Source of the DNA: Spirochaetales bacterium | GTDB taxonomy: Bacteria > Spirochaetota > Spirochaetia > SZUA-6 > JAFGRV01 | Direction of reading: 5' to 3' | Assembly (NCBI GenBank): GCA_016930085.1 | Contig: JAFGHO010000119.1 | Location: forward strand, 1 to 50,151 | Length of the DNA stretch: 50,151 nt | Shown: positions 35,532 to 47,064 of the stretch, in pieces | Layout: each line of letters starts with the position of its first letter | Position numbering within the stretch: position 1 is the first letter of the stretch | Position numbers and translations under genes: made by a program | Notes under the pieces: generated by a model | Told to the model about the DNA's origin: nothing | The model's database searches: none | Seen by the model: only the letters and a program-made list of their open reading frames with translations

Positions 35532-38500
35532 TTATTTCAATTTCTTGAGTCGCCTGCTTAACGCCGAAAGCGATAGTCCAAGGAGTTGCGCTGCGATCGT
35601 CATGTTTCCCCCCGCCGCTTCGAGCGCCTTATGTATATGCGATGCTTCGGCTTCCCTTAACGAAAGGAAATGCCCGCTGTCGAAAAGCCGCTTCTTTCCT
35701 GCCGGCCCGCCTTCTTTCCCGGAATAATTCATTTCCGTATGTTTCTGTTGTTCGATATACTGCCTGAAATATCCGAGTGACAGAACTTTCCTTTTGTGAA
35801 GACTTACGGCATTCTTTATCATTGCTTCAAGCTCCCTGACATTTCCCGGGAAATGGTATGTTTTAAGGAGTGTGATTAATTGTGCCGGCCAGACGGGCTT
35901 TTTTTTCCCCATGGAAGCGGAAGCGGCGGTAAAAAAATGATCGAGGAGGAGTGGGAGGTCGTCAAAGCGTTCCCGAAGGGGCGGGATGGTAATTTTATGA
36001 GTGATCCGCTGATAGAGGTCTTCCCTGAATCCGCCTTCCTTTATTTTCCTCTTCAGGTCCCTGTTTGTCGCGAGAATGATCCGTGCGTGCGAGGCTCTTT
36101 TTTTATCCGATCCAAGGGGATAGTACTCGTGATCCTCGATAAGCTCAAGCAGTTTTACCTGGGAAGCGAGTTCGAGATCCCCTATCTCGTCCAGAAAAAT
36201 CGAGCCTCGTTCCGCCCTGGCAATAAGCCCTTCACGCGATTCGATTGCCGTAGTAAACGCCCCCTTTACATGTCCGAAAAGGGTGTCGGAAAAAAGAGTA
36301 TCGTCGATTCCGGCGATGTTGACCGGTACGAAGTACTCGTTGTCTCTATAAATAGTATGCACCGCGCGGGCGAACAATTTTTTACCAACGCCGCTTTCTC
36401 CTTCAATCAGGATCGGTTCGTGACTGAGAGAAAATGATGCAAGTGTTTCAAAAAGAGTATACATGTGCCGATTCTGTGTCACAATACAGGCAAACGCCTC
36501 CGCATACGATACATCGCGGGGCCGCGTGCGGGGGACGGAGGAGGAAATGGTATCGTCGATTTTTTGTTGTTCGATCGCACGCCGGACGACACCCCTGAAC
36601 ATGCCGTCGCTCAATGGTTTGACGAGGTAATCGAAGGCCCCCAATTTCATGCAGCGAACTGCGTCCTCCGGATCGCTTTTGCCGGTAACGATAATAACGG
36701 GGATTTCGGGATGGTCTTCATGTACGATCGTGAGAAAATCGAGGATGCCGCCTGAAGAAAGACTGTGGTCGAGAATAAGTACCGCCGCCTGGTTTACTTC
36801 CAGAAATGCGGTGATTTTCTTCTCATGTTCGAAAACCACAATGTTCGTTATACCGTCATGGATGAGAACCCTTTGATACACCTCCGACACGTCCGGATTG
36901 CCCGCAATAACGATCGGTGATGAAGGATGCAGCGGCCCTTTTACTCCGGCCGGCGTTTCCCCGCCCGTGGGGGTGACGGTTTTTCTCACCGCTTTATAAA
37001 CGGAAAGGATATAATTGACTTTCGCCATGAGTTCTGCGGGATGAAAGGGAACGGCGATGACCTCGTCCGGAACGGCGGCCGACCCGTCCGGCGGCAAACG
37101 CCTCGCCGGACGATCGGAAAGCAGGACAATCGGAATCGACGGTACTGTCTCGCTTTCCCGTATCAGTTTTATGAATTCATCACCGTCGGTCGCGGGAAGA
37201 TACGAAGTGCAGACAACGCAGTCCGGCTTGTGGGTTTCCGCTTTGTCCAGACCGTCACAGGCATCGACCGCTTCAATAACGGTACAGGATGGTGAGAGTA
37301 CCGTTTTTATCAGGGTGAGCATATCCCGATCGCCGGCGACTGCGAGGACGCAATTTTTGAGGACAGGTGTTGCCTGATGAGTTTTAGCGGCGATCGTTAT
37401 CTTTATGGTTCCGGCTTCATCGCGGCCGCCGCCGTATAGTTGTCCGGGCTTTTTAATTTCGGACGGGTCAAGGTGGTCTTTACCACACAGGAAAGAGAGA
37501 ACAACCTCGCTTCCTTGAACGGGATTGCCGCCGGTCCGCATTATCCCATGATGCAGCAGGATCATTTCTCTTGCGAGCAGCAGTCCGATTTCCGCCGCTT
37601 CTTCCATGACCTCATCCGTCTTCTTTTCTTCCGATCCTCTCACGGAACGGAAAAAATTATCTGTTATCGCCGTAATTCCACGGGAAAATTTTTTATCCGG
37701 CTGCATCCGGAGCCTGATTTCAATATATCGTCCGCCGGGTTTTTTGCGGCCCTTTTTAGAAAGACTTATGCGGATTTTCCCGTTTCGCGGCAGGCTGCGG
37801 ATCTGTGAGAAGAGTATGGCCCCGATAATCCGTTCGAACTTGAGGCGGTCGATGTAAAGAACGTGTTTTTCCTCCGCGTGACTGAAAAGAAGCCGGATAT
37901 TTCTTTCCGCCGCGCGGGCGGCGAAGGTTCTTGTGATGCTGTCGATGATCGGACTTATATCGGTTTTAGCGGCAGACAGCCCCATGGCGCGCCCCCCGAT
38001 CCGCGAAAGATCGAGGATCTGGTCAACGAGGTCCGCGAGTCGTTTTGCATTTCTCTTTGCGATCAAGAGTTGTTCTTCAATGAGTTCCGGCCCCCCCTTT
38101 CGGTGCTGCTGCAGAAGGACATCGAGAGGCCCGCTGATGAGAGCAAGTGGTGTTTTGAGTTCGTGGGAGACGTTTTCATAAAAGGCTTTTTTGATTTCCA
38201 CCCTTGAAAGGGCAAGGCGTTTTTCCTGTCTTTCACGGACAAAACGATACATACTGACTGCGGGAATCGCGAGGAAAAAACCGAGTGAGAACGGCAGCAT
38301 CAGGGGAAGCGTTCGCATGAAAAAAAACCCGGAAACCGAATATAGTATAAAAAGAAGAAAAACGAAAGCGGCCGCGGGGTAGAAGACCTGGGATTTCCAG
38401 AAAGCGGCGCAGACACAGAGAAGGAATATCCCGATCGCATATATCAGGGTAATACCGATAGGGTCGCAGTCGCGTATGAAATTCTCTGTAAGTATCATGT

Positions 38501-39545
38501 TTGCCACGGTGAGGTGAATGCCGCTCAACGGGTAGAGGGGATCGAGGATGCCGGTTCCGTAATCGTTGACCCGTAATGATATATCGGAAAAGAGAACAAG
38601 GGTCCCCTCGGTGACATCGCGTATTTGATTCCGCCGATTGACGTCCGCCGCCGCTTCGACGATATTATGGACGGGAAACTGGAGAAAGGAGTCACCCCAC
38701 CTGCCGGGGTAGTCGATGATCGCCCTGCCGCGGTCATCGACGGGTATGTTGATGTCCCGCGGTACCCCGGCCCCGATATGTGCGTTTTTTAGCAGGATGT
38801 GGCTGCCGAAGGAAACCTCGATGTCATCCCCCTTCACATGAAGAAGATCGCAGAGTGCGTGAAAGACGAGTGAAGGCACGTAACCGTCTTCAAACCGGTA
38901 TATGAGGGGGAAACGCCTGTTGATGCCGTCTTCATCTGGTGAGGCGTTGATATGCCCCATGCCCCGGCATGCGGTTGCAAGGGCCGGAAAGACGGTTTCG
39001 ACTGTTTCACCGGTAAAGGGAACCCCCTCGTGCAGTACGGCCGGATGCCAGATGTTCCGTTCGCCCGTTGTACCGGGGAATCCCCTTTCTCTTTCCTCTT
39101 TCCGTACGCCCGGTTCGCTTCCCCCTCTGAATATAACGGGGTAGTAAATATTTCCCGCTTCCAAGGTTTCCTCGACGAGTTCCGAGTCCCCGGGGCCGTC
39201 ACCCCGCCGCTCGAAAACGAAATCGCAGGCGATCGAAGACGCTCCGGAACGGCCGAGGATGCCGATCATATCGGCGTAAAACCGGTGGTCCCACAATTTC
39301 GATCCGAGTTCGTCGTAACTTGTGTCGTTTACCGTAACATGGGTAAGGTAGGGGGAAACGGGCCCTTTCCCGAATAGACGGTAGCGCAGGCGGAAAAGGT
39401 TGTCGTTCAGCCGGGCGTTCCAGAGTCCGATAGCGTCTGCGAAAAGAAAACTGAGGATAAAGACAAAAAGAAACGAACCGGCGATAATGAGAAAAGTGGG
39501 GATAAGTTCGGTTTTTTTAATGCCTGATCCGGATCGTCCTGACAT
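35532..39545 (-). CDS. giant membrane regulator: CHASE2, kinase-like, two receivers, sigma-54 AAA+, Fis HTH
   Basis: This protein of about 1,337 residues joins a sensor and a sigma-54 activator. Order: membrane helix (about 12-35); extracytoplasmic CHASE2 (about 40-340); three membrane helices (about 350-430); HisKA with S-H-E-L-K-T-P (His near 461); an ATPase-like domain lacking the N-box asparagine and D-x-G-x-G; receiver 1, whose phosphoacceptor is replaced (V-V-C-T-S-Y-L-P); receiver 2 with D, T and K retained (L-I-L-D, V-T-G, V-K-P); sigma-54 AAA+ with Walker A G-E-S-G-V-G-K-K near 1048, a G-A-F-T-T-A loop in place of G-A-F-T-G-A near 1095, and G-S-I-F-L-D-E-I-G-D; and a C-terminal Fis helix-turn-helix. 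The start ATG 39545 overlaps the DUF4384 gene by 29 bases. It is the last gene of the caspase locus. Confidence 0.88.
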   Translation of the reverse strand: MSGRSGSGIKKTELIPTFLIIAGSFLFVFILSFLFADAIGLWNARLNDNLFRLRYRLFGKGPVSPYLTHVTVNDTSYDELGSKLWDHRFYADMIGILGRSGASSIACDFVFERRGDGPGDSELVEETLEAGNIYYPVIFRGGSEPGVRKEERERGFPGTTGERNIWHPAVLHEGVPFTGETVETVFPALATACRGMGHINASPDEDGINRRFPLIYRFEDGYVPSLVFHALCDLLHVKGDDIEVSFGSHILLKNAHIGAGVPRDINIPVDDRGRAIIDYPGRWGDSFLQFPVHNIVEAAADVNRRNQIRDVTEGTLVLFSDISLRVNDYGTGILDPLYPLSGIHLTVANMILTENFIRDCDPIGITLIYAIGIFLLCVCAAFWKSQVFYPAAAFVFLLFILYSVSGFFFMRTLPLMLPFSLGFFLAIPAVSMYRFVRERQEKRLALSRVEIKKAFYENVSHELKTPLALISGPLDVLLQQHRKGGPELIEEQLLIAKRNAKRLADLVDQILDLSRIGGRAMGLSAAKTDISPIIDSITRTFAARAAERNIRLLFSHAEEKHVLYIDRLKFERIIGAILFSQIRSLPRNGKIRISLSKKGRKKPGGRYIEIRLRMQPDKKFSRGITAITDNFFRSVRGSEEKKTDEVMEEAAEIGLLLAREMILLHHGIMRTGGNPVQGSEVVLSFLCGKDHLDPSEIKKPGQLYGGGRDEAGTIKITIAAKTHQATPVLKNCVLAVAGDRDMLTLIKTVLSPSCTVIEAVDACDGLDKAETHKPDCVVCTSYLPATDGDEFIKLIRESETVPSIPIVLLSDRPARRLPPDGSAAVPDEVIAVPFHPAELMAKVNYILSVYKAVRKTVTPTGGETPAGVKGPLHPSSPIVIAGNPDVSEVYQRVLIHDGITNIVVFEHEKKITAFLEVNQAAVLILDHSLSSGGILDFLTIVHEDHPEIPVIIVTGKSDPEDAVRCMKLGAFDYLVKPLSDGMFRGVVRRAIEQQKIDDTISSSVPRTRPRDVSYAEAFACIVTQNRHMYTLFETLASFSLSHEPILIEGESGVGKKLFARAVHTIYRDNEYFVPVNIAGIDDTLFSDTLFGHVKGAFTTAIESREGLIARAERGSIFLDEIGDLELASQVKLLELIEDHEYYPLGSDKKRASHARIILATNRDLKRKIKEGGFREDLYQRITHKITIPPLRERFDDLPLLLDHFFTAASASMGKKKPVWPAQLITLLKTYHFPGNVRELEAMIKNAVSLHKRKVLSLGYFRQYIEQQKHTEMNYSGKEGGPAGKKRLFDSGHFLSLREAEASHIHKALEAAGGNMTIAAQLLGLSLSALSRRLKKLK

Positions 39546-40185
39546 AGATATCATTCGATTGTACCAGAACCCCCCGGTCCCCTGCAACCTCTTCGATACC
39601 CCGGAAACTCCCGGAAATTCCAACGGGCGTTTCTTCTTTCTCCGCAAGGGGGCTCGACTCTTTCCCGATCGACCGGATACGCGCGAGAATTTCTTCCTGC
39701 GCGGCCTGTATTTTTTCGCCCCTGTCATTTCCCGTTTTCTCACGCAGCGATACATAGGCTGCGGTAAGCCGTTCGAGGTCATGCAGGCGCTGCGCGGAGG
39801 CGACAAGGTAGAAATATTCGACGCCTTCGGGTTCGTCCAGGCTGAACCATTCAGTCCCTTCCGGCACCGTGTAGCGTTTCCCCTGTTCGTAACCGTCATC
39901 GAAAAAAGCGGGCTCCGGGGGAAAGAGAAGGTGGAGGGAGTTTTCCGTGTCGAGAAGGTACAGGGAGACGAAGGCGCGTTCGATGGGTTCGATGTAGATT
40001 TTTATCAGGTCTCCGGGATTCATGGTAACCTCCGGGGGGGTACAGTCGACCGTCCATACACCTCCGTCCCTGTCGAGTGAGACGAGCGCCCACTTGAAGG
40101 AGAGTGCGGCCGATGGTTTCGTGGCAAAGGAAAGAAGGATGAGGGGGAGAAGGATGATGGATACTGCGAAGAATGACTGTTTCAT
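39517..40185 (-). CDS. exported DUF4384-domain protein
   Basis: This 222-residue protein has a signal peptide (about residues 1-27, ending P-S-A-A). The main domain (about 40-145) matches DUF4384: G-D-L-I-K-I-Y-I, then V-S-L-Y-L-L-D-T, L-H-L-L-F-P and Y-F-Y-L-V-A-S. DUF4384 domains often occur with caspase-like or serine/threonine-kinase proteins in bacteria; their role is not known. A charged helical tail follows. The start is ATG 40185 with AAGAGGCAG upstream; the frame extends far upstream through the glycine-rich gene and is not real there. A long hairpin lies between it and the upstream gene, and its end overlaps the regulator gene. Confidence 0.8.
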   Translation of the reverse strand: MKQSFFAVSIILLPLILLSFATKPSAALSFKWALVSLDRDGGVWTVDCTPPEVTMNPGDLIKIYIEPIERAFVSLYLLDTENSLHLLFPPEPAFFDDGYEQGKRYTVPEGTEWFSLDEPEGVEYFYLVASAQRLHDLERLTAAYVSLREKTGNDRGEKIQAAQEEILARIRSIGKESSPLAEKEETPVGISGSFRGIEEVAGDRGVLVQSNDIYVRTIRIRH

Positions 40186-40215
40186 TGCTGCCTCTTGTAT
40201 TCGATTTAAAATAAA

Positions 40216-40250
40216 GCTGCAAGGGAAACGGTCCGACCGTTTCCCTTGCA
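40216..40250 (-). terminator. perfect 16-base-pair hairpin inside the caspase locus
   Basis: CTGCAAGGGAAACGGT and ACCGTTTCCCTTGCAG form a perfect 16-base-pair stem with a 3-base loop. Read on the minus strand it is followed by CTTTATTTTA, a T-rich but interrupted tail. It may partly stop transcription between the glycine-rich genes and the DUF4384/regulator pair, or protect the upstream mRNA from 3' decay. Confidence 0.75.
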
Positions 40251-40264
40251 GATGATGTTCCTGA

Positions 40265-41542
40265 TTATTCGGCTTCGTAGCCCTGCCACCAGATGATCGC
40301 GCATCCGGACGTTCCCAATCTTCCGTTAGCGCCTTTTCCTCCCGGGCTCCCGGGTTGGGGACCGGTTGTATTCGGTATTCCCCCATTCCCGCCTTTACCG
40401 CCTTTGCCACCGTTGCCGCCGTCTCCGCCCGAACCATATCCATTGTATTCGGTATTATATTCACCCGGTGTTCCGGCCTGGCCGCCGCTGCCGCCGTTTC
40501 CTGGGGCACTCGGACCGCTTTCCGCGTTGCTGCCGTAGGAACCGTCGCCCCCGCGTCGGTAACCGGCTCTGCCGGCTCCGGCGTTTCCGCTTCCTCCGGG
40601 AGTTCCGGCAGTCGTACTTACGGCAGTCCCACCGTTTCCCCCTCCGCCGCCGTTTCCTCCGTTTGAACCCGCGGTGCCTTTTGGCCCTATGTAGGCATTG
40701 CTGCCGGAAAAGGTGAAGCGGGTGTCTTTATCGTTTGTGCCGATTTCAATATCGAATCCTTCCGATGGTATCGCGATGAAGAATGTACCGGTAAATCGTG
40801 CCGCAACAGCGGCATAACCGCTTCCGCCTCCGCCGCCTCCGCCGCCTCCTCCGCCGCTGCCGCCGACTCCGCCGCCGATATTGGAAGAATAATAAGCATC
40901 GCCACCGCTTCCGCCGTTACCGCCGTTGCCGCCGTTGCCGCCGTTGCCGCCGCTGCCGACAAGGGTGATATCAAGCATGAAATTATGCAGGCTGCCGTTG
41001 TTCGGTTTCCAGTTATTTATGGTGGATGTAATCCATGGATCGGTCACTCCGGAGACGACCCTGTTTCCCTTTCCCGAAAGATTGATCGTGTAAAGGATTT
41101 CTTCCGGATCGGTATCCGGCCTTATTTCGACAATGGCCGTTTTCAATCCATTACTGACCGGATTAAAATCGATTTCCTTGACGATACTCTCATCGGGCGA
41201 CAACGTCGCCTGTTCCGAATTAATCGTAAAAACATTTTCTTCTTGTTCCATTTTAATGGTGATTCCGATTTCGGCTTCTCCGGTGTTTTTAATGGTGATG
41301 GATTTGGCAGTATGATTTTCCCTGACATCCTCTTCACCATACAAAGGAGAGCCTTCCCATAAAACGGTTTCAAAATCCAGTTCACCGCCGTTTGAGACCT
41401 CTTCCACGATTATCCCCTTGACGGGGGGCGGTGAAGGGTCGTTTATCTCTTGCGGAATTTCAATATCGTCACAGGCATGGAAGCACACAACCAGAGCCGC
41501 GAGAATAACGCCTGCCGTACATGCCGTCATACTTTTTTTCAT
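40265..41542 (-). CDS. glycine-rich repeat lipoprotein with an N-terminal ASH-type Ig domain (paralogue 1)
   Basis: This 425-residue protein has a lipoprotein signal (F-H-A-C, cysteine near 24, then D-D). A proline-rich hinge (D-P-S-P-P-P) leads to an ASH/choice-of-anchor type Ig-like domain (about 45-165; I-T-I-K-N-T-G, I-D-F-N-P-V, I-N-L-S-G-K-G). From about residue 200 it is mainly G-G-N and G-G-G repeats broken by one beta segment (about 265-295), ending in a hydrophobic tail C-A-I-I-W-W-Q-G-Y-E. Such glycine-rich parts form rigid or sticky surface structures in other proteins. AGGAGG precedes ATG 41542. The gene is a paralogue of the broken gene just upstream, sharing the hinge, the T-V-L-W-E-G motif and the tail. 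Confidence 0.8.
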   Translation of the reverse strand: MKKSMTACTAGVILAALVVCFHACDDIEIPQEINDPSPPPVKGIIVEEVSNGGELDFETVLWEGSPLYGEEDVRENHTAKSITIKNTGEAEIGITIKMEQEENVFTINSEQATLSPDESIVKEIDFNPVSNGLKTAIVEIRPDTDPEEILYTINLSGKGNRVVSGVTDPWITSTINNWKPNNGSLHNFMLDITLVGSGGNGGNGGNGGNGGSGGDAYYSSNIGGGVGGSGGGGGGGGGGGSGYAAVAARFTGTFFIAIPSEGFDIEIGTNDKDTRFTFSGSNAYIGPKGTAGSNGGNGGGGGNGGTAVSTTAGTPGGSGNAGAGRAGYRRGGDGSYGSNAESGPSAPGNGGSGGQAGTPGEYNTEYNGYGSGGDGGNGGKGGKGGNGGIPNTTGPQPGSPGGKGANGRLGTSGCAIIWWQGYEAE

Positions 41543-41612
41543 TGTTTCTTCCTCCTTAATATATATGTACAATTCACTCGCTGCATCCCGGCCGGAGATG
41601 TATCGATAATAT

Positions 41613-41633
41613 ATTTCCGTCCCGCGCGGAAAT
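41613..41633 (-). other. short hairpin upstream of glycine-rich paralogue 1
   Basis: ATTTCCG and CGGAAAT (7 base pairs, 7-base loop) lie in the 265-base gap between the two glycine-rich genes. No T run follows on the minus strand, so a terminator role is doubtful; it would lie in the 5' leader of paralogue 1. Confidence 0.35.
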
Positions 41634-41807
41634 CCCTGTGATATTTTCACCGTGGATTTCTCTCACGGGAAAGATTCCAAACAAATACCCGTATACCCCT
41701 GTCTGTCGTCACCGGAATGGCTTCATACCGGTGATGCACGGTGCTGGGTACCGTAAATCGATCCTTCCATGCAAACGATGTGTTCCCGGAAGGGTCCGGC
41801 AAAACGG

Positions 41808-42823
41808 TTACGGTATTTCATACCCGGTCCATTCGATAATGGCGATTCCGGCGGTACCCGCGGAACCTGCGCTGTTGGATGATCCCGACCACCCGCCTGT
41901 GCCTGCGCACTCAAAAGAGGGGGCCGGAACTCCACCGGTCCCTCCCTTTCCGCCTGATCCACCGTTACCACCATTACCTCCCCTTCCGTATTCCACATTA
42001 TTATATGTAAACCCTGAAGCGCCGGAACATCCTGCACCGCCGCTTCCGCCGCTTGACCCGATATTGCCGTTCTTTCCGTTCTGACTTACGCAGCACGATC
42101 CCGTTCCCCCGGGGCCGCCGCCGCCACCGCCATCTCCGCCCTCATAGCAGGGACCCGAAGGATCGTAGTGACAATAACCTCCCCCTGGCCGCCCTTTCCG
42201 CCACTGCCTCCATCTCCGCCGGCTCCACCGCCGCCGACAAGCGTCATATCCAGTCTCAGGCGATAGACATCCCCGTCGTTCGGTTTCCAGCTTGCCGTCG
42301 ATGCGGTAAAGGCCTGGGGTCCCGAACCTGCTATCACCCTGTTTCCTTTACCGCGGAGGCTGAACAGGTATGGAGGTATCGATTTTTCGTATGGTATAAT
42401 CGAGACGACCGCGCTTTTTATACCGTTATCCGCCGGTTTGAAGTCGAAGGTGATCGCGGTGTCTGTTTCCGGCAGAACGGTAAGCGGTAATGATGTGGTG
42501 ACGGTAAAGTTTATCTCCGGCTGCTCGATGGCGACTTCGGAGATGATAAGCGGGTCCTTATCCTGATTCGTTATCGTAATTGAATGCCGGGAAACAACTT
42601 CGCTGACATCGGACTCATCGTGAAGCCTCGTTCCCTCCCATAAAACCGTGCCGAAATCCAGTGTTCCGCCCTTTTCAATGTCCACGACCAGATCGCGGGA
42701 GGGAGGGGGTGACGGATCCTCCTTCGGTTTATTCGGAAAATCAATATCCTCGCAGGAATTGAACCATGTAAAGCCGGTAACGGCGATAATGCCGATTATT
42801 ATCGTTACGACGTTTTTTTCCAT
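41808..42823 (-). pseudogene. glycine-rich lipoprotein, paralogue 2, frameshifted at a G5 run
   Basis: Read from ATG 42823 (AAGGAGG upstream) the protein has a lipoprotein signal (F-N-S-C-E-D), the same D-P-S-P-P-P hinge, T-V-L-W-E-G motif and ASH-like domain as paralogue 1, then G-G repeats. It leaves its frame at 42181-42185, five G on the coding strand, and stops at 42086 after an Ala/Arg-rich out-of-frame tail. With one more G the frame stays open to 41808, giving about 338 residues that end in A-I-I-E-W-T-G-Y-E-I-P, matching the tail of paralogue 1. The downstream part also holds several cysteines. The gene is either broken, switchable by slippage, or a sequencing error. Confidence 0.8.
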
Positions 42824-42871
42824 TAATAATTCCTCCTTATGAATTGCCAATATAGCATTATCGCTGCGAAA

Positions 42872-44263
42872 CTATAATATCATCTCGTACAACAGCCCAG
42901 GGGAGACTCCCGTATACGGATCATCGCCCAGAAAGTTGATGAATAAACTCCCGTAGACGCCGAAGAACCATGAACGGAAAAGGTTCATCCTGATGCCGCA
43001 CGATACGGAAAAAGCGGGCCGGATATTTCCCGTTTCTCCTTCACCGGCCCCGGTAAGAAGCATATTGACGGCAGCGCCCCCGCAGAGTTCGATATATCCC
43101 GATACGAACGCGGCTTCGGGATAGGTGTATCGAAGCAGAAGCTGGAGGGGAAACGATATAACCGAAAACGCAGGGGAATAATCTTCCGCTTCCTCCGCAT
43201 AATTCATTCCCGCAAACACCCCGATACCGAATGTTCCGTGCATGAAACCGGTATTCCAGAGGAGACTCGCGGCGGGGGCGTACCCGTATCCCACTGCCTC
43301 TTCCAGTTTTCCGACCGGAAGGCTTATTTCCATCCTCAGGCCGAGCGACAGGTGTCCGGTGGAGGGCGTTATCGCAGCCGCCGGTTCTTCCATTACGACA
43401 ATTGTATTCTTTTCTTTCTGCGGGTTTGCTATTTCCTCTTTGAGGAAGAGGAGAAAACTCGCCCCTTCCTGATGGCCCGTCTCCTTCAGGTTCCCGACAA
43501 GGGGAGTCGTTCGCGTAATCCCGAGCCGGATTTCGCTGTAGATCATGTAGGGATCGAGGTACGGTTTTTTGTTTTTTTCCAGAAGAAGCTTGAGCTGGAG
43601 CGCGAATTCGGAATTATCCGGAACGGTCTCGGACGCCCCGGATGTAATCACCTGTCTCGATACACGCGTATACGCTTTGTTGAAATAAGTTATGTCCTTC
43701 CCGGTGTCCTCGAGGCCGCGGCTTCCGGAGAGGAGATCGCCGCTGAAACAAGAGTCGCTGATGATGCAGAGGTGGGATGCTTTGATCCCGCCGATGAATC
43801 CCCTTATCTGTGAATTGGGAAGCCAGTTTTCCTGGGCATAACGGTCTTTGCCCGCGTTAACCGGAATCCAGAATCCGGAACTCGTCGTTTGATCGAAATA
43901 GCCGTGACCGAAATAAATGACTAAAAGCGAGTCTTCGGGGAGGAATGTCTTCTTGAGACGGTCGAATGTTTCGATTATATAGCCTTTTGTCGCCTCTTTG
44001 TCATAAATTTCTGTGACCTCGTCAATGACATACCGTGTTTTGAGGATATCCCGTATTTCCTTTATGTCCCTGACAGGGTATTCCAGCGCCGGCCATTTCG
44101 TGTATTTTCCGATCCCGATGAGGAGAAGGTATTGCCTGCCGCGTTCTATGGATATCGTTTGAGGGACGTCGACTTTATTGAGATTTCTGGATTCATCAGC
44201 ATGCAGATAATACGAAGAAAAGACAGAGAGGATGATAATGATGGATATGGAGTGTTTTTTCAT
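42872..44263 (-). CDS. exported caspase-like (C14) protease with a C-terminal beta-barrel
   Basis: This 463-residue protein has a signal peptide (about residues 1-22, ending Y-L-H-A). A caspase/metacaspase-like p20 domain follows (about 43-290), with the catalytic His120 in V-I-Y-F-G-H-G and Cys172 in I-I-S-D-S-C-F-S-G-D; D170 lies where metacaspases hold the basic P1 residue of a substrate. After a Pro/Ala linker, about 165 residues of alternating amphipathic strands (L-S-L-G-L-R-M-E-I, F-G-I-G-V-F-A-G-M, F-P-L-Q-L-L-L-R-Y) look like an outer-membrane barrel. The start ATG 44263 has AGG upstream. It is the first gene of the five-gene unit and would place the protease in the periplasm or at the surface. 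Confidence 0.85.
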   Translation of the reverse strand: MKKHSISIIIILSVFSSYYLHADESRNLNKVDVPQTISIERGRQYLLLIGIGKYTKWPALEYPVRDIKEIRDILKTRYVIDEVTEIYDKEATKGYIIETFDRLKKTFLPEDSLLVIYFGHGYFDQTTSSGFWIPVNAGKDRYAQENWLPNSQIRGFIGGIKASHLCIISDSCFSGDLLSGSRGLEDTGKDITYFNKAYTRVSRQVITSGASETVPDNSEFALQLKLLLEKNKKPYLDPYMIYSEIRLGITRTTPLVGNLKETGHQEGASFLLFLKEEIANPQKEKNTIVVMEEPAAAITPSTGHLSLGLRMEISLPVGKLEEAVGYGYAPAASLLWNTGFMHGTFGIGVFAGMNYAEEAEDYSPAFSVISFPLQLLLRYTYPEAAFVSGYIELCGGAAVNMLLTGAGEGETGNIRPAFSVSCGIRMNLFRSWFFGVYGSLFINFLGDDPYTGVSPGLLYEMIL

Positions 44264-44321
44264 TGGGTTACCTGTTCCTTCAATAACCAAAAAGATATTT
44301 TTTTTACAAGGCGAAGTCTCA

Positions 44322-44349
44322 ATTGTATCATAAATAATAAAAAAATCAA
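44322..44349 (-). promoter_or_regulatory. sigma-70 type promoter for the caspase locus
   Basis: On the minus strand TTGATT (44349-44344) and TACAAT (44327-44322) are 16 bases apart in a T-rich stretch. Transcription would begin near 44315, about 52 bases before ATG 44263. Confidence 0.55.
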
Positions 44350-44402
44350 AAGAAAAAACACTCATCGAAATATATCCGGTTTCCTTTCTGCAAGGATATA
44401 TA

Positions 44403-44419
44403 TTCAATATGTGTGCCAA
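44403..44419 (-). promoter_or_regulatory. sigma-54-like promoter for the caspase locus
   Basis: On the minus strand TTGGCACACATATTGAA matches the consensus TTGGCAC-N5-TTGCA in the whole -24 part and in T-T-G of the -12 part, with the correct GG-N10-G spacing. The usual C of the -12 GC is A. It lies 140 bases upstream of ATG 44263. Confidence 0.45.
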
Positions 44420-44476
44420 TTTTTCCCTGTCTTATCTAAAACAGAATAATTTCTTATTTTATAAATAAATAACCCG

Positions 44477-44499
44477 CCTGTGGGACGGCGGTGCACAGG
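44477..44499. promoter_or_regulatory. inverted repeat, possible activator site
   Basis: CCTGTG (44477-44482) and CACAGG (44494-44499) flank an 11-base centre. The repeat lies 58-82 bases upstream of the sigma-54-like -24 element, a usual distance for an enhancer site. It could instead be a weak terminator for the PilZ gene. Confidence 0.35.
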
Positions 44500-44659: not shown

Positions 44660-44959
44660 TCAGTTTGTCAGCCTGTTGATCGTCTCGTACTGAAGTTTAT
44701 TCGCTTCCATAAAATCGATCCCGTTTTCGAAAAAATCGGAAATAATCTGAAGACTCCACATGACCTTTCCCTTTATTATTATCTGACTTCCGTCCGGCAA
44801 CGTCAGACTCAGGGTGAGCAGTCTTCCTTTATTCAACGGTTCCCTTGTAGTGATACAAATACCGCCTTTGCTTATATTTTTCACTTTTGCCCTCACCTGT
44901 TTGTTGACATTGACATTCACATTCACATCGACGCGGGGAAACTCTCTTCTTTCTTTCAC
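44660..44959 (-). CDS. PilZ-domain protein (c-di-GMP receptor type)
   Basis: This 99-residue protein is a single PilZ domain. It opens with K-E-R-R-E-F-P-R, which supplies the R-x-x-x-R motif for cyclic di-GMP, and continues with V-K-N-I-S-K-G-G-I-C-I, the second half of the binding site (D/N-x-S-x-x-G), then L-T-L-S-L-T-L-P and G-K-V-M-W. It is therefore a likely c-di-GMP receptor, in contrast to the PilZ protein at 19555. The start is GTG 44959 with AGAGGG about 10 bases upstream. Near the N-terminus the alternating V-N-V-N-V-N-V-N is encoded by a run of near-identical hexamers. It lies upstream of the caspase locus on the same strand, 396 bases away. Confidence 0.85.
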   Translation of the reverse strand: MKERREFPRVDVNVNVNVNKQVRAKVKNISKGGICITTREPLNKGRLLTLSLTLPDGSQIIIKGKVMWSLQIISDFFENGIDFMEANKLQYETINRLTN

Positions 44960-45150: not shown

Positions 45151-45540
45151 ATGCTCGTTTACAAGGCGCTCGATATTTTCTTTTTTGTATTTCATGCGAT
45201 ATTTACCGGTTTTTGTACCTTCGGCTGGATATGGAAAAAAACCAGGAAACTGAATTTTATCCTGCTTTTTCTTACAGGCATTTCGTGGCTCCTGGTCGGC
45301 CCGCTGTGCGGGTACGGTATAGGATATTGCCCTTTCACCGACTGGCACTGGCAGGCAAAGATAAAACTGGGGTATACCGATTTTCCCCGTTCGTATGTAA
45401 AATTCTTTTTTGATTCGTTGACAGGACTGGATTTGAACGCCTTTGCCGTTGATGCGGCGGTTGCCTTTTTATTTGCCGCGGCTTTCATGCTTTCTCTGAT
45501 ACTCAATATCAGGGATATCGTCCGCACCCGGAGGCATTAA
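45151..45540 (+). CDS. DUF2784-like small membrane protein
   Basis: This 129-residue protein has four hydrophobic segments (about residues 5-25, 32-50, 85-100 and 102-122) and a conserved-looking loop with C-G-Y-G-I-G-Y-C-P-F-T-D-W-H-W between the second and third. The arrangement resembles the DUF2784 family of inner-membrane proteins of unknown function. The start is ATG 45151, since the -10 box lies just upstream; the frame extends to ATG 45112, which falls on the -35 box. Its stop overlaps that of the convergent gene (45537-45540). Confidence 0.7.
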   Translation: MLVYKALDIFFFVFHAIFTGFCTFGWIWKKTRKLNFILLFLTGISWLLVGPLCGYGIGYCPFTDWHWQAKIKLGYTDFPRSYVKFFFDSLTGLDLNAFAVDAAVAFLFAAAFMLSLILNIRDIVRTRRH

Positions 45541-46916
45541 TAAGAGATTTCACACCCCAATGTGGTGGTGAGAATTGATGTGATATTATTGATATCGATT
45601 CCTTCGACGGCCGCGGCCATAGCCCCCGACTCCAATGGCAGCGGTTTCCGTGTCGATAACGTTACGTATCCGCAGAAATCGGCGTACGTAAAACGATAGG
45701 AACATCTGAACGACCATGCCGGGTTTTCTCTTAAAAAAAGACCTCCGCCCGTGAATATCATGTGCGCGCCGGCTTCAAGGGAGATATCCGATGTTATCGC
45801 CGCCGTCACGTTTCCTCCCTCCTCCGCCATGTTCAGGGCCGCCCGGAACGAGACCGGGTCCGGGATGAGTTCCGCAGTCACGGATGCGCTTTTCTCGCAG
45901 CTTGTTTGCCCGTGTTTATCATACATCAGTCGTACCATTAAAAATGACGAAAAAGAACAATCGGGCTTCGAATTGCCCGGCATATCCCAAACGGCACCCG
46001 CTTTCCAGGTTTCCTCTCCTTCGAGATAGTGCTGGCGGGTATCCTCAGGGTGATTGTATGCAAGTTCATACCCCCCATGGAGTGAAAAGGATTTTGCCGG
46101 GGTAATCGTTATCTTTCCTCCTGTTTTAAGCCGCGCGGCTTCATAATCGCCCCGGGGTGTGATAAAGCCGTCTGTACAAACCCCGATAAAAACCTCAGGT
46201 GAGAATGCCGTGACATCGCACGACAAGGTACAACGGGTAAACGAGCCTGGAGGAATGAGCCGTCCGGCTGAAATGATTTCGGTGACGGTGAACGAAAACC
46301 GGGGTGGGGCGATACAGAGTTTTGTCCCGATATGCACAATGTCACCACCGGAGAAATTGTTTCTTGGGGTAAACCACGCTTCCCCGGCGGCATCCCGGGC
46401 GGGGCGCGAACCGGAATAAATAAAGCTGATAAACGATTCCCGGCAAAAATCAATAGATATTGTACCCCCCCAGAAAACAGGTTTTCCATTGTCGAGGTCG
46501 CAAAACATACCGAACGTATCGGGGACGGGTTCCAAAAACAGAAAATAATTGGAATCGTTATAAAAGGAAGATGAAAGCCTGAGATCAGTTTTTTCGGTAA
46601 AGACATTACTACCGGCTGAAAATCCCATCGGGTTGTATAATTCCCGGAAAAGCCCGTGTTTGTTGACCGGTCCGGCGGTCAACATCGGCGAAGAAAGACC
46701 GACCGTGACGGCGAGATCGTTCAGACCCAGGGATTTTTCACGTATGAGCAGTTTCATGTTTTCTCCCGTAAAAAGCAGTCTGGATTGTAATTCCTCACGA
46801 TCATGGAGTTCGACGGTCAGGGTCGTTTTATCCGGAAAAACCGGAAAAAGGGGGAGGCAGCCGGTCACACAGCAAAAAATGAATACGGCCGAATATCGGG
46901 ATATATTTTTTTTCAT
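45537..46916 (-). CDS. exported beta-rich protein, probably outer-membrane
   Basis: This 459-residue protein has an N-terminal signal (about residues 1-25) with V-T-G-C near residue 19, so it may be a lipoprotein or have a plain signal peptide. The mature part is rich in alternating strands (L-A-V-T-V-G-L-S-S, F-S-F-T-V-T-E-I, F-S-L-H-G-G-Y-E-L-A-Y, F-R-C-S-Y-R-F-T-Y) and ends in the aromatic I-S-Y, which together suggest a large outer-membrane barrel of 14-18 strands. I do not recognise the family. The start is ATG 46916; no clear ribosome site precedes it. It is divergent from the DUF362 gene, with a copy of the GGGACGGAGG motif in the gap. Confidence 0.65.
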   Translation of the reverse strand: MKKNISRYSAVFIFCCVTGCLPLFPVFPDKTTLTVELHDREELQSRLLFTGENMKLLIREKSLGLNDLAVTVGLSSPMLTAGPVNKHGLFRELYNPMGFSAGSNVFTEKTDLRLSSSFYNDSNYFLFLEPVPDTFGMFCDLDNGKPVFWGGTISIDFCRESFISFIYSGSRPARDAAGEAWFTPRNNFSGGDIVHIGTKLCIAPPRFSFTVTEIISAGRLIPPGSFTRCTLSCDVTAFSPEVFIGVCTDGFITPRGDYEAARLKTGGKITITPAKSFSLHGGYELAYNHPEDTRQHYLEGEETWKAGAVWDMPGNSKPDCSFSSFLMVRLMYDKHGQTSCEKSASVTAELIPDPVSFRAALNMAEEGGNVTAAITSDISLEAGAHMIFTGGGLFLRENPAWSFRCSYRFTYADFCGYVTLSTRKPLPLESGAMAAAVEGIDINNITSILTTTLGCEISY

Positions 46917-47064
46917 ACCGATGGTAAGCAACAAGTGTGCCGGGAAAAGCGGCCGAAATACCTTAAAAAATTTACATTCATTAACATAGCATACCAATTG
47001 TATCGATGTCGATATGACACGGGTCTTGTTGCCTTCATGGGGACGGAGGTGCATGCGTCTCCCC

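Follow-up and report, generated by a model that had tools for sequence, protein, structure and literature searches.

Introduction

Bacterial caspases are mostly discussed as cytoplasmic proteases of cell death and immunity. Here we describe a locus from a Spirochaetales bacterium, contained in a 50,151-nucleotide stretch of DNA (the window; contig G000:C119 of a 5.36-Mb draft genome), in which genes for a caspase-like protease (CASP), two glycine-rich lipoproteins (GLY1 and GLY2), a DUF4384-domain protein and a CHASE2/sigma-54 regulator (REG) lie side by side. Comparison with related genomes indicates that the conserved unit is a predicted DUF4384-CHASE2 sensor/activator pair beside exchangeable exported cargo, with the caspase as one recurring cargo.

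Among published caspase homologues are fusions to CHASE2, fusions to DUF4384 and operons with OmpA; OmpA domains have been reported in 14 metacaspase operons (PMC3501461). Orthocaspases (MEROPS C14) share with CASP a p20 fold with a His-Cys dyad, and their FGE-sulfatase fusions have a counterpart in one CASP relative (locus L038), where an FGE-sulfatase domain stands in place of the barrel; CASP differs from them in being exported, fused to its own 8-strand barrel and encoded beside a DUF4384-CHASE2 pair. A Trichodesmium caspase-CHASE2 fusion (PMC3501461) and CHASE2-bearing conflict proteins (PMC8195603) likewise join a CHASE2 receptor to a caspase or conflict component, but the caspase there is predicted to be cytoplasmic. 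Because CHASE2 in our locus belongs to the sigma-54 regulator and the caspase is exported, the caspase-CHASE2 connection here is probably transcriptional. Some orthocaspases are also associated with DUF4384 (PMC7475262), although within the same protein, whereas here DUF4384 is exported as a protein of its own and is paired with CHASE2. REG resembles NtrC-type sigma-54 activators and hybrid sensor kinases in its AAA+ Walker A/B motifs, GAFTGA-type loop, Fis helix-turn-helix (HTH) and receivers, but joins kinase, receivers, AAA+ domain and CHASE2 sensor in one chain, with a degenerate kinase in the window copy. The locus does not fit the EACC1-associated caspase conflict system, in which an EACC1 component lies beside a cytoplasmic effector: CASP scores 45.3 bits (E=6.9e-12) against NCBIfam NF047832, under the model cut-off of 140, it carries a signal peptide, and no EACC1 domain was found in the five window proteins.

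In the open-access literature we found no description of a DUF4384-CHASE2 pair or of an exported caspase-barrel protein, and the present arrangement is not described in the papers found. If our interpretation is correct, a barrel-anchored caspase switched by an envelope sensor would have a different job from its cytoplasmic relatives, namely cutting envelope proteins in a controlled way. For DUF4384, whose function is unknown, the module supplies a definite partner that can be tested, CHASE2, and it predicts the promoters on which the regulator acts.

Organization of the locus

Five coding regions, all on the minus strand, lie within positions 35532-44263 of the window. Gene starts were chosen by ribosome-binding site or signal peptide. 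The true starts of CASP (44263), GLY2 (41542) and DUF4384 (40185) lie downstream of those of the long open reading frames, and REG probably starts at 39554 or 39545 rather than at 39899. In the direction of transcription, the features are:

44403..44418, minus strand: candidate sigma-54 promoter, TGGCACACATATTGAA, upstream of CASP
42872..44263, minus strand: CASP, with signal peptide, caspase p20 domain (His120/Cys172), linker and C-terminal OmpA-like 8-strand barrel (NF047832, 12-copy alignment, AlphaFold)
41808..42823, minus strand: GLY1, lipoprotein with an ASPM/choice-of-anchor-D-like Ig domain and a glycine-rich C-terminus, frameshifted
40265..41542, minus strand: GLY2, intact glycine-rich lipoprotein, paralogue of GLY1
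40217..40251, minus strand: terminator-like hairpin of 16 bp, then CTTTATTTT, between GLY2 and DUF4384
39517..40185, minus strand: DUF4384, exported DUF4384-domain protein (PF14326, 12-copy alignment, AlphaFold)
35532..39554, minus strand: REG, with CHASE2, HisKA, degenerate HATPase, two receivers, sigma-54 AAA+ and Fis HTH

CASP and GLY1 are separated by 48 bases, GLY1 and GLY2 by 265, and GLY2 and DUF4384 by 79, while the REG frame overlaps the end of DUF4384. The stem of the hairpin is perfect (z=-7.0), and none of 200 shuffled sequences was equally stable. Because this terminator-like element separates GLY2 from DUF4384, the block probably comprises two transcription units, CASP-GLY1-GLY2 and DUF4384-REG; given also the divergent arrangements in relatives, a single five-gene operon is unlikely. 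Thus, of the five-gene unit proposed in the initial annotation, the five minus-strand coding regions are present, but GLY1 is frameshifted and the hairpin suggests two transcription units.

Conservation in related genomes

Caspase, DUF4384 and regulator were searched for separately in 26 genomes of the order. A DUF4384 gene was found within ~3 kb of 12 of the 14 caspase copies. One of the remaining two, C17, lies on a 3.7-kb contig whose end cuts the locus, and the other, C259 (L038), is a true exception. Likewise, a CHASE2 regulator adjoins 18 of 20 strong DUF4384 copies (the exceptions being G005:C349 and G002:C109); its kinase and AAA+ parts are separate adjacent genes in L157 and L167. Within the stretch fetched, no caspase accompanies the DUF4384-CHASE2 pair in L153, L154, L156-L158, L160-L162, L164-L166 and L169. 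At the threshold used, the DUF4384 type was present in 5 of 393 sampled genomes of the phylum, the window's genome counted; among the other four, loci were fetched from two, and in both it lay beside CHASE2 again (L164; L165 and L166). No such module was found outside the Spirochaetes in a scan of 84,980 species that started from caspase sequence patterns only.

Since relatives repeatedly carry CASP, DUF4384 and the CHASE2 regulator as neighbours, the comparison supports the view that the window neighbourhood is not due to chance. The full five-gene set was seen only in the window, and the three genes form the conserved module; the glycine-rich proteins, window-only among 27 genomes, are ruled out as a conserved part of it. 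The expectation that all five families would co-occur, which homologues rarely found together would have contradicted, therefore stands for three genes and fails for the two glycine-rich ones.

The slot between or beside caspase and DUF4384 is variable. It holds propeller-like lipoproteins in L032, L034 and L041, a tail-collar protein in L039 and L042 and another lipoprotein in L043, and is empty in L035 and L044; S74-type tail fibres are encoded elsewhere in the locus in L037 and L040. Nearly all partner genes carry an export signal or lipobox, as judged by eye, and four are tail-fibre-like. A clostripain gene lies beside L035, and a TPR-CHAT protease gene (L159:224-3496), with an exact sigma-54 consensus in front, lies ~5.6 kb from a DUF4384 gene.

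Sigma-54 promoters

The motif TGGCAC-N5-TTGAA upstream of CASP was first spotted by eye, and the idea was then tested on other copies. Sites scoring at least 12.5 within 250 bases upstream were found for 4 of 13 caspase copies. Of the 179 other genes in these loci, five have such a site (Fisher p=0.0013), and these five are themselves module genes (two in L035 and one each in L037, L041 and L153). Across 667,694 strand-bases of the loci there are 10 instances of the exact consensus TGGCAY-N5-TTGC, where by arithmetic from the 19-45 occurrences per genome in six whole genomes about two would be expected. Nine of the 10 head module genes (L034, L037, L038, L039, L040, L041, L042, L157 and L159). 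An rpoN gene was found in the genome. Because sigma-54 sites head cargo genes in most copies and are rare elsewhere, and because rpoN is present, the regulator most likely switches on the neighbouring cargo, in line with the original suggestion that it drives production of its neighbours.

The DUF4384-CHASE2 pair itself seems to be transcribed separately, since in the loci with divergent cargo and pair (L040, L153 and L157) the strong sites face the cargo. The hairpin that separates GLY2 from DUF4384 in the window is consistent with this, as is one in L042. In L032, L034 and L041, read-through is likely because the genes abut or overlap. No palindromic activator sites were detected upstream of the promoter at the thresholds used. 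Separately, a histidine kinase gene with its own exact sigma-54 site lies downstream of the regulator in L037 (L037:1-1229).

The exported caspase

His120 and Cys172, the His-Cys dyad of family C14, are kept in all 12 aligned CASP copies. Profile comparison also matches CASP to metacaspases and MALT1; Pfam Peptidase_C14 was matched in CASP homologues and not in the window protein itself. In the AlphaFold model (pLDDT 74, pTM 0.53), the caspase part resembles MALT1, metacaspases and legumain, and the barrel part resembles OmpA and NspA. Together with the signal peptide, these features mark CASP as a predicted exported protein in which a caspase fold, its dyad intact, is joined to an outer-membrane-type barrel, as had been proposed from the sequence. 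A classical autotransporter was rejected, as it needs a 12-strand translocator barrel and the model gives about eight long strands.

Both ends of an even-strand outer-membrane barrel face the periplasm. Because the protease domain is N-terminal to an 8-strand OmpA-type barrel, it should be periplasmic rather than surface-exposed, and by this general rule the earlier description of CASP as a surface protease is unlikely to be right.

The DUF4384 protein and the regulator

The exported DUF4384 protein matches Pfam PF14326 (E=2.6e-10). Its AlphaFold model is good (pLDDT 84), yet no fold in the PDB matched at E<=0.001, and a fold-based function was dropped. In REG (1340 aa), Pfam places, in order, CHASE2, HisKA, an HATPase-like domain, two receivers, the sigma-54 AAA+ domain and the Fis HTH, so that both members of the pair carry the domains first assigned to them.

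The AAA+ domain keeps the Walker A and B motifs of a sigma-54 enhancer-binding protein (GESGVGK and FLDEIGD) with an altered loop, GAFTTA in place of GAFTGA (near 36250 in the window). The N-box Asn and the DxGxG box are absent from the kinase, as is the phospho-acceptor Asp from receiver 1; receiver 2 lacks the acidic pair, with Asp and Lys retained. The window protein thus falls short of a functional hybrid histidine kinase, and the motifs are retained in several relatives. Because of the degenerate kinase and receiver pockets and the altered loop, signalling by the window copy may be phosphorylation-independent, or the copy may be decaying. The second Gly of GAFTGA is altered in 5 of 14 copies examined. 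It is T in the window and N in L037; L044 and L157 both have D, and the loop of L042 reads GAFNEA. In NorR, D or N at this position bypasses repression of the activator (PMC2941729), and the N and D of L037, L044 and L157 are these bypass substitutions.

The glycine-rich lipoproteins

GLY1 and GLY2 are 39% identical across their first 196 aa, and a lipobox-like motif (FNSC or FHAC) lies close to each N-terminus. Their description as two paralogous glycine-rich lipoproteins holds in these respects, but GLY1 is not one open frame, being broken by a one-base shift at a five-G run near 42185 (window 42170-42200). The shifted frame runs on for 125 residues, stops at 41808 and shares its C-terminal motif with GLY2. 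Because it is intact over this length with a GLY2-like end, the shift could have arisen recently, making GLY1 a pseudogene, or it could stem from an error in the assembly or be a programmed translational frameshift. A phage origin of the glycine-rich proteins was rejected, as the matches were weak and probably composition-driven.

Proposed mechanism and alternative explanations

We favour, at a probability of roughly 55%, a reading in which the envelope-sensing DUF4384-CHASE2 pair switches on an exported protease and an exported partner. The exported DUF4384 protein and the CHASE2 domain would jointly sense an envelope signal in the periplasm, as we infer from their extracytoplasmic location (family knowledge and a signal peptide). 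The signal would reach the AAA+ domain by way of the kinase and receivers; the AAA+ domain would then open sigma-54 promoters and so bring about expression of a caspase anchored on the periplasmic side of the outer membrane and of its partner: glycine-rich lipoproteins in the window, and phage tail-fibre-like, propeller-like or other exported proteins elsewhere. From co-regulation and the shared compartment we infer that the protease most likely processes or releases exported envelope proteins in the periplasm, by which the cell surface would be changed on demand. The best-supported statement is the regulatory one, that the pair controls neighbouring exported cargo, including the barrel-anchored caspase.

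Several observations weigh against this reading. The weakest point is the promoter evidence in G000 itself: the exact consensus, with 30 occurrences, is barely above the 23 of a reversed-pattern control, and the -12 element of the window site, TTGAA, departs from TTGC at one base. No clear sigma-54 site was seen upstream of the caspase in L032, L033 and L037, and L036 and L043 have weak ones only. The CASP barrel is modelled with moderate confidence (pTM 0.53). Among the 27 genomes searched, the glycine-rich pair reached a meaningful score only in the window, and with a frameshifted GLY1 and a degenerate REG kinase the window copy may not function.

A broader, more tentative proposal is that the pair forms an envelope-sensing cassette able to take up one exported cargo in place of another. 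Clan-CD proteases (caspase, clostripain, CHAT) would be a recurring effector and phage-tail-fibre-like or glycine-rich surface proteins their substrates, which would make this an inducible caspase pathway in the periplasm that remodels the spirochaete surface.

It is rather unlikely that the window locus is a decaying copy and its neighbours are remnants. The GLY1 frameshift, the degenerate kinase and receiver pockets, the GAFTTA loop and a promoter one base off consensus would fit decay, but the CASP, GLY2, DUF4384 and 1340-aa REG frames are intact and the caspase dyad and Walker A/B motifs are kept; moreover, changes of the second Gly recur in other copies, and Asp or Asn there frees NorR from repression (PMC2941729).

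We likewise doubt that the locus serves stress-triggered programmed lysis or defence, in which CHASE2 and DUF4384 would sense envelope damage by phage or predator and an induced caspase would kill or lyse the cell from the periplasm. Caspase-like proteases have been discussed as death effectors of cytoplasmic conflict systems (PMC8195603, PMC7475262), and the pair, or its DUF4384 member, repeatedly has a clan-CD protease (caspase, clostripain or TPR-CHAT) as a neighbour. However, the caspase here is exported, no immunity or NTPase component was seen, the partners resemble surface proteins, and the usual triggering is post-translational, faster than switching by transcription. A defence-gene library gave only generic caspase and RtcR-type AAA matches, with no component-set match to a known anti-phage system, and so provided no positive evidence for cell death or defence.

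Least probable are two independent neighbouring units, with DUF4384-REG regulating other genes and CASP-GLY1-GLY2 controlled separately: a terminator-like hairpin does lie between them, DUF4384-CHASE2 pairs occur without a caspase and the L038 caspase has no pair nearby, but DUF4384 accompanies 12 of 14 caspase copies, whether in tandem or divergently oriented, and the cargo next to it has sigma-54 promoters in front.

Other features of the loci

In L039 (4564-7525), DUF4384 and CHASE2 are ~1.3 kb apart and the regulator is in two frames, possibly an interrupted copy. A large exported protein with no Pfam match (L153:1-3078) is divergent from a DUF4384-CHASE2 pair of the same genome, and a sigma-54-like site faces its gene. 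In the window, a PilZ-domain gene (44660-44959, same strand) lies directly upstream of CASP, and a sigma-54-like site, CGGCACACTTGTTGCT (46927-46942, minus strand), lies near the possible start of an exported protein encoded at 45537-47054.

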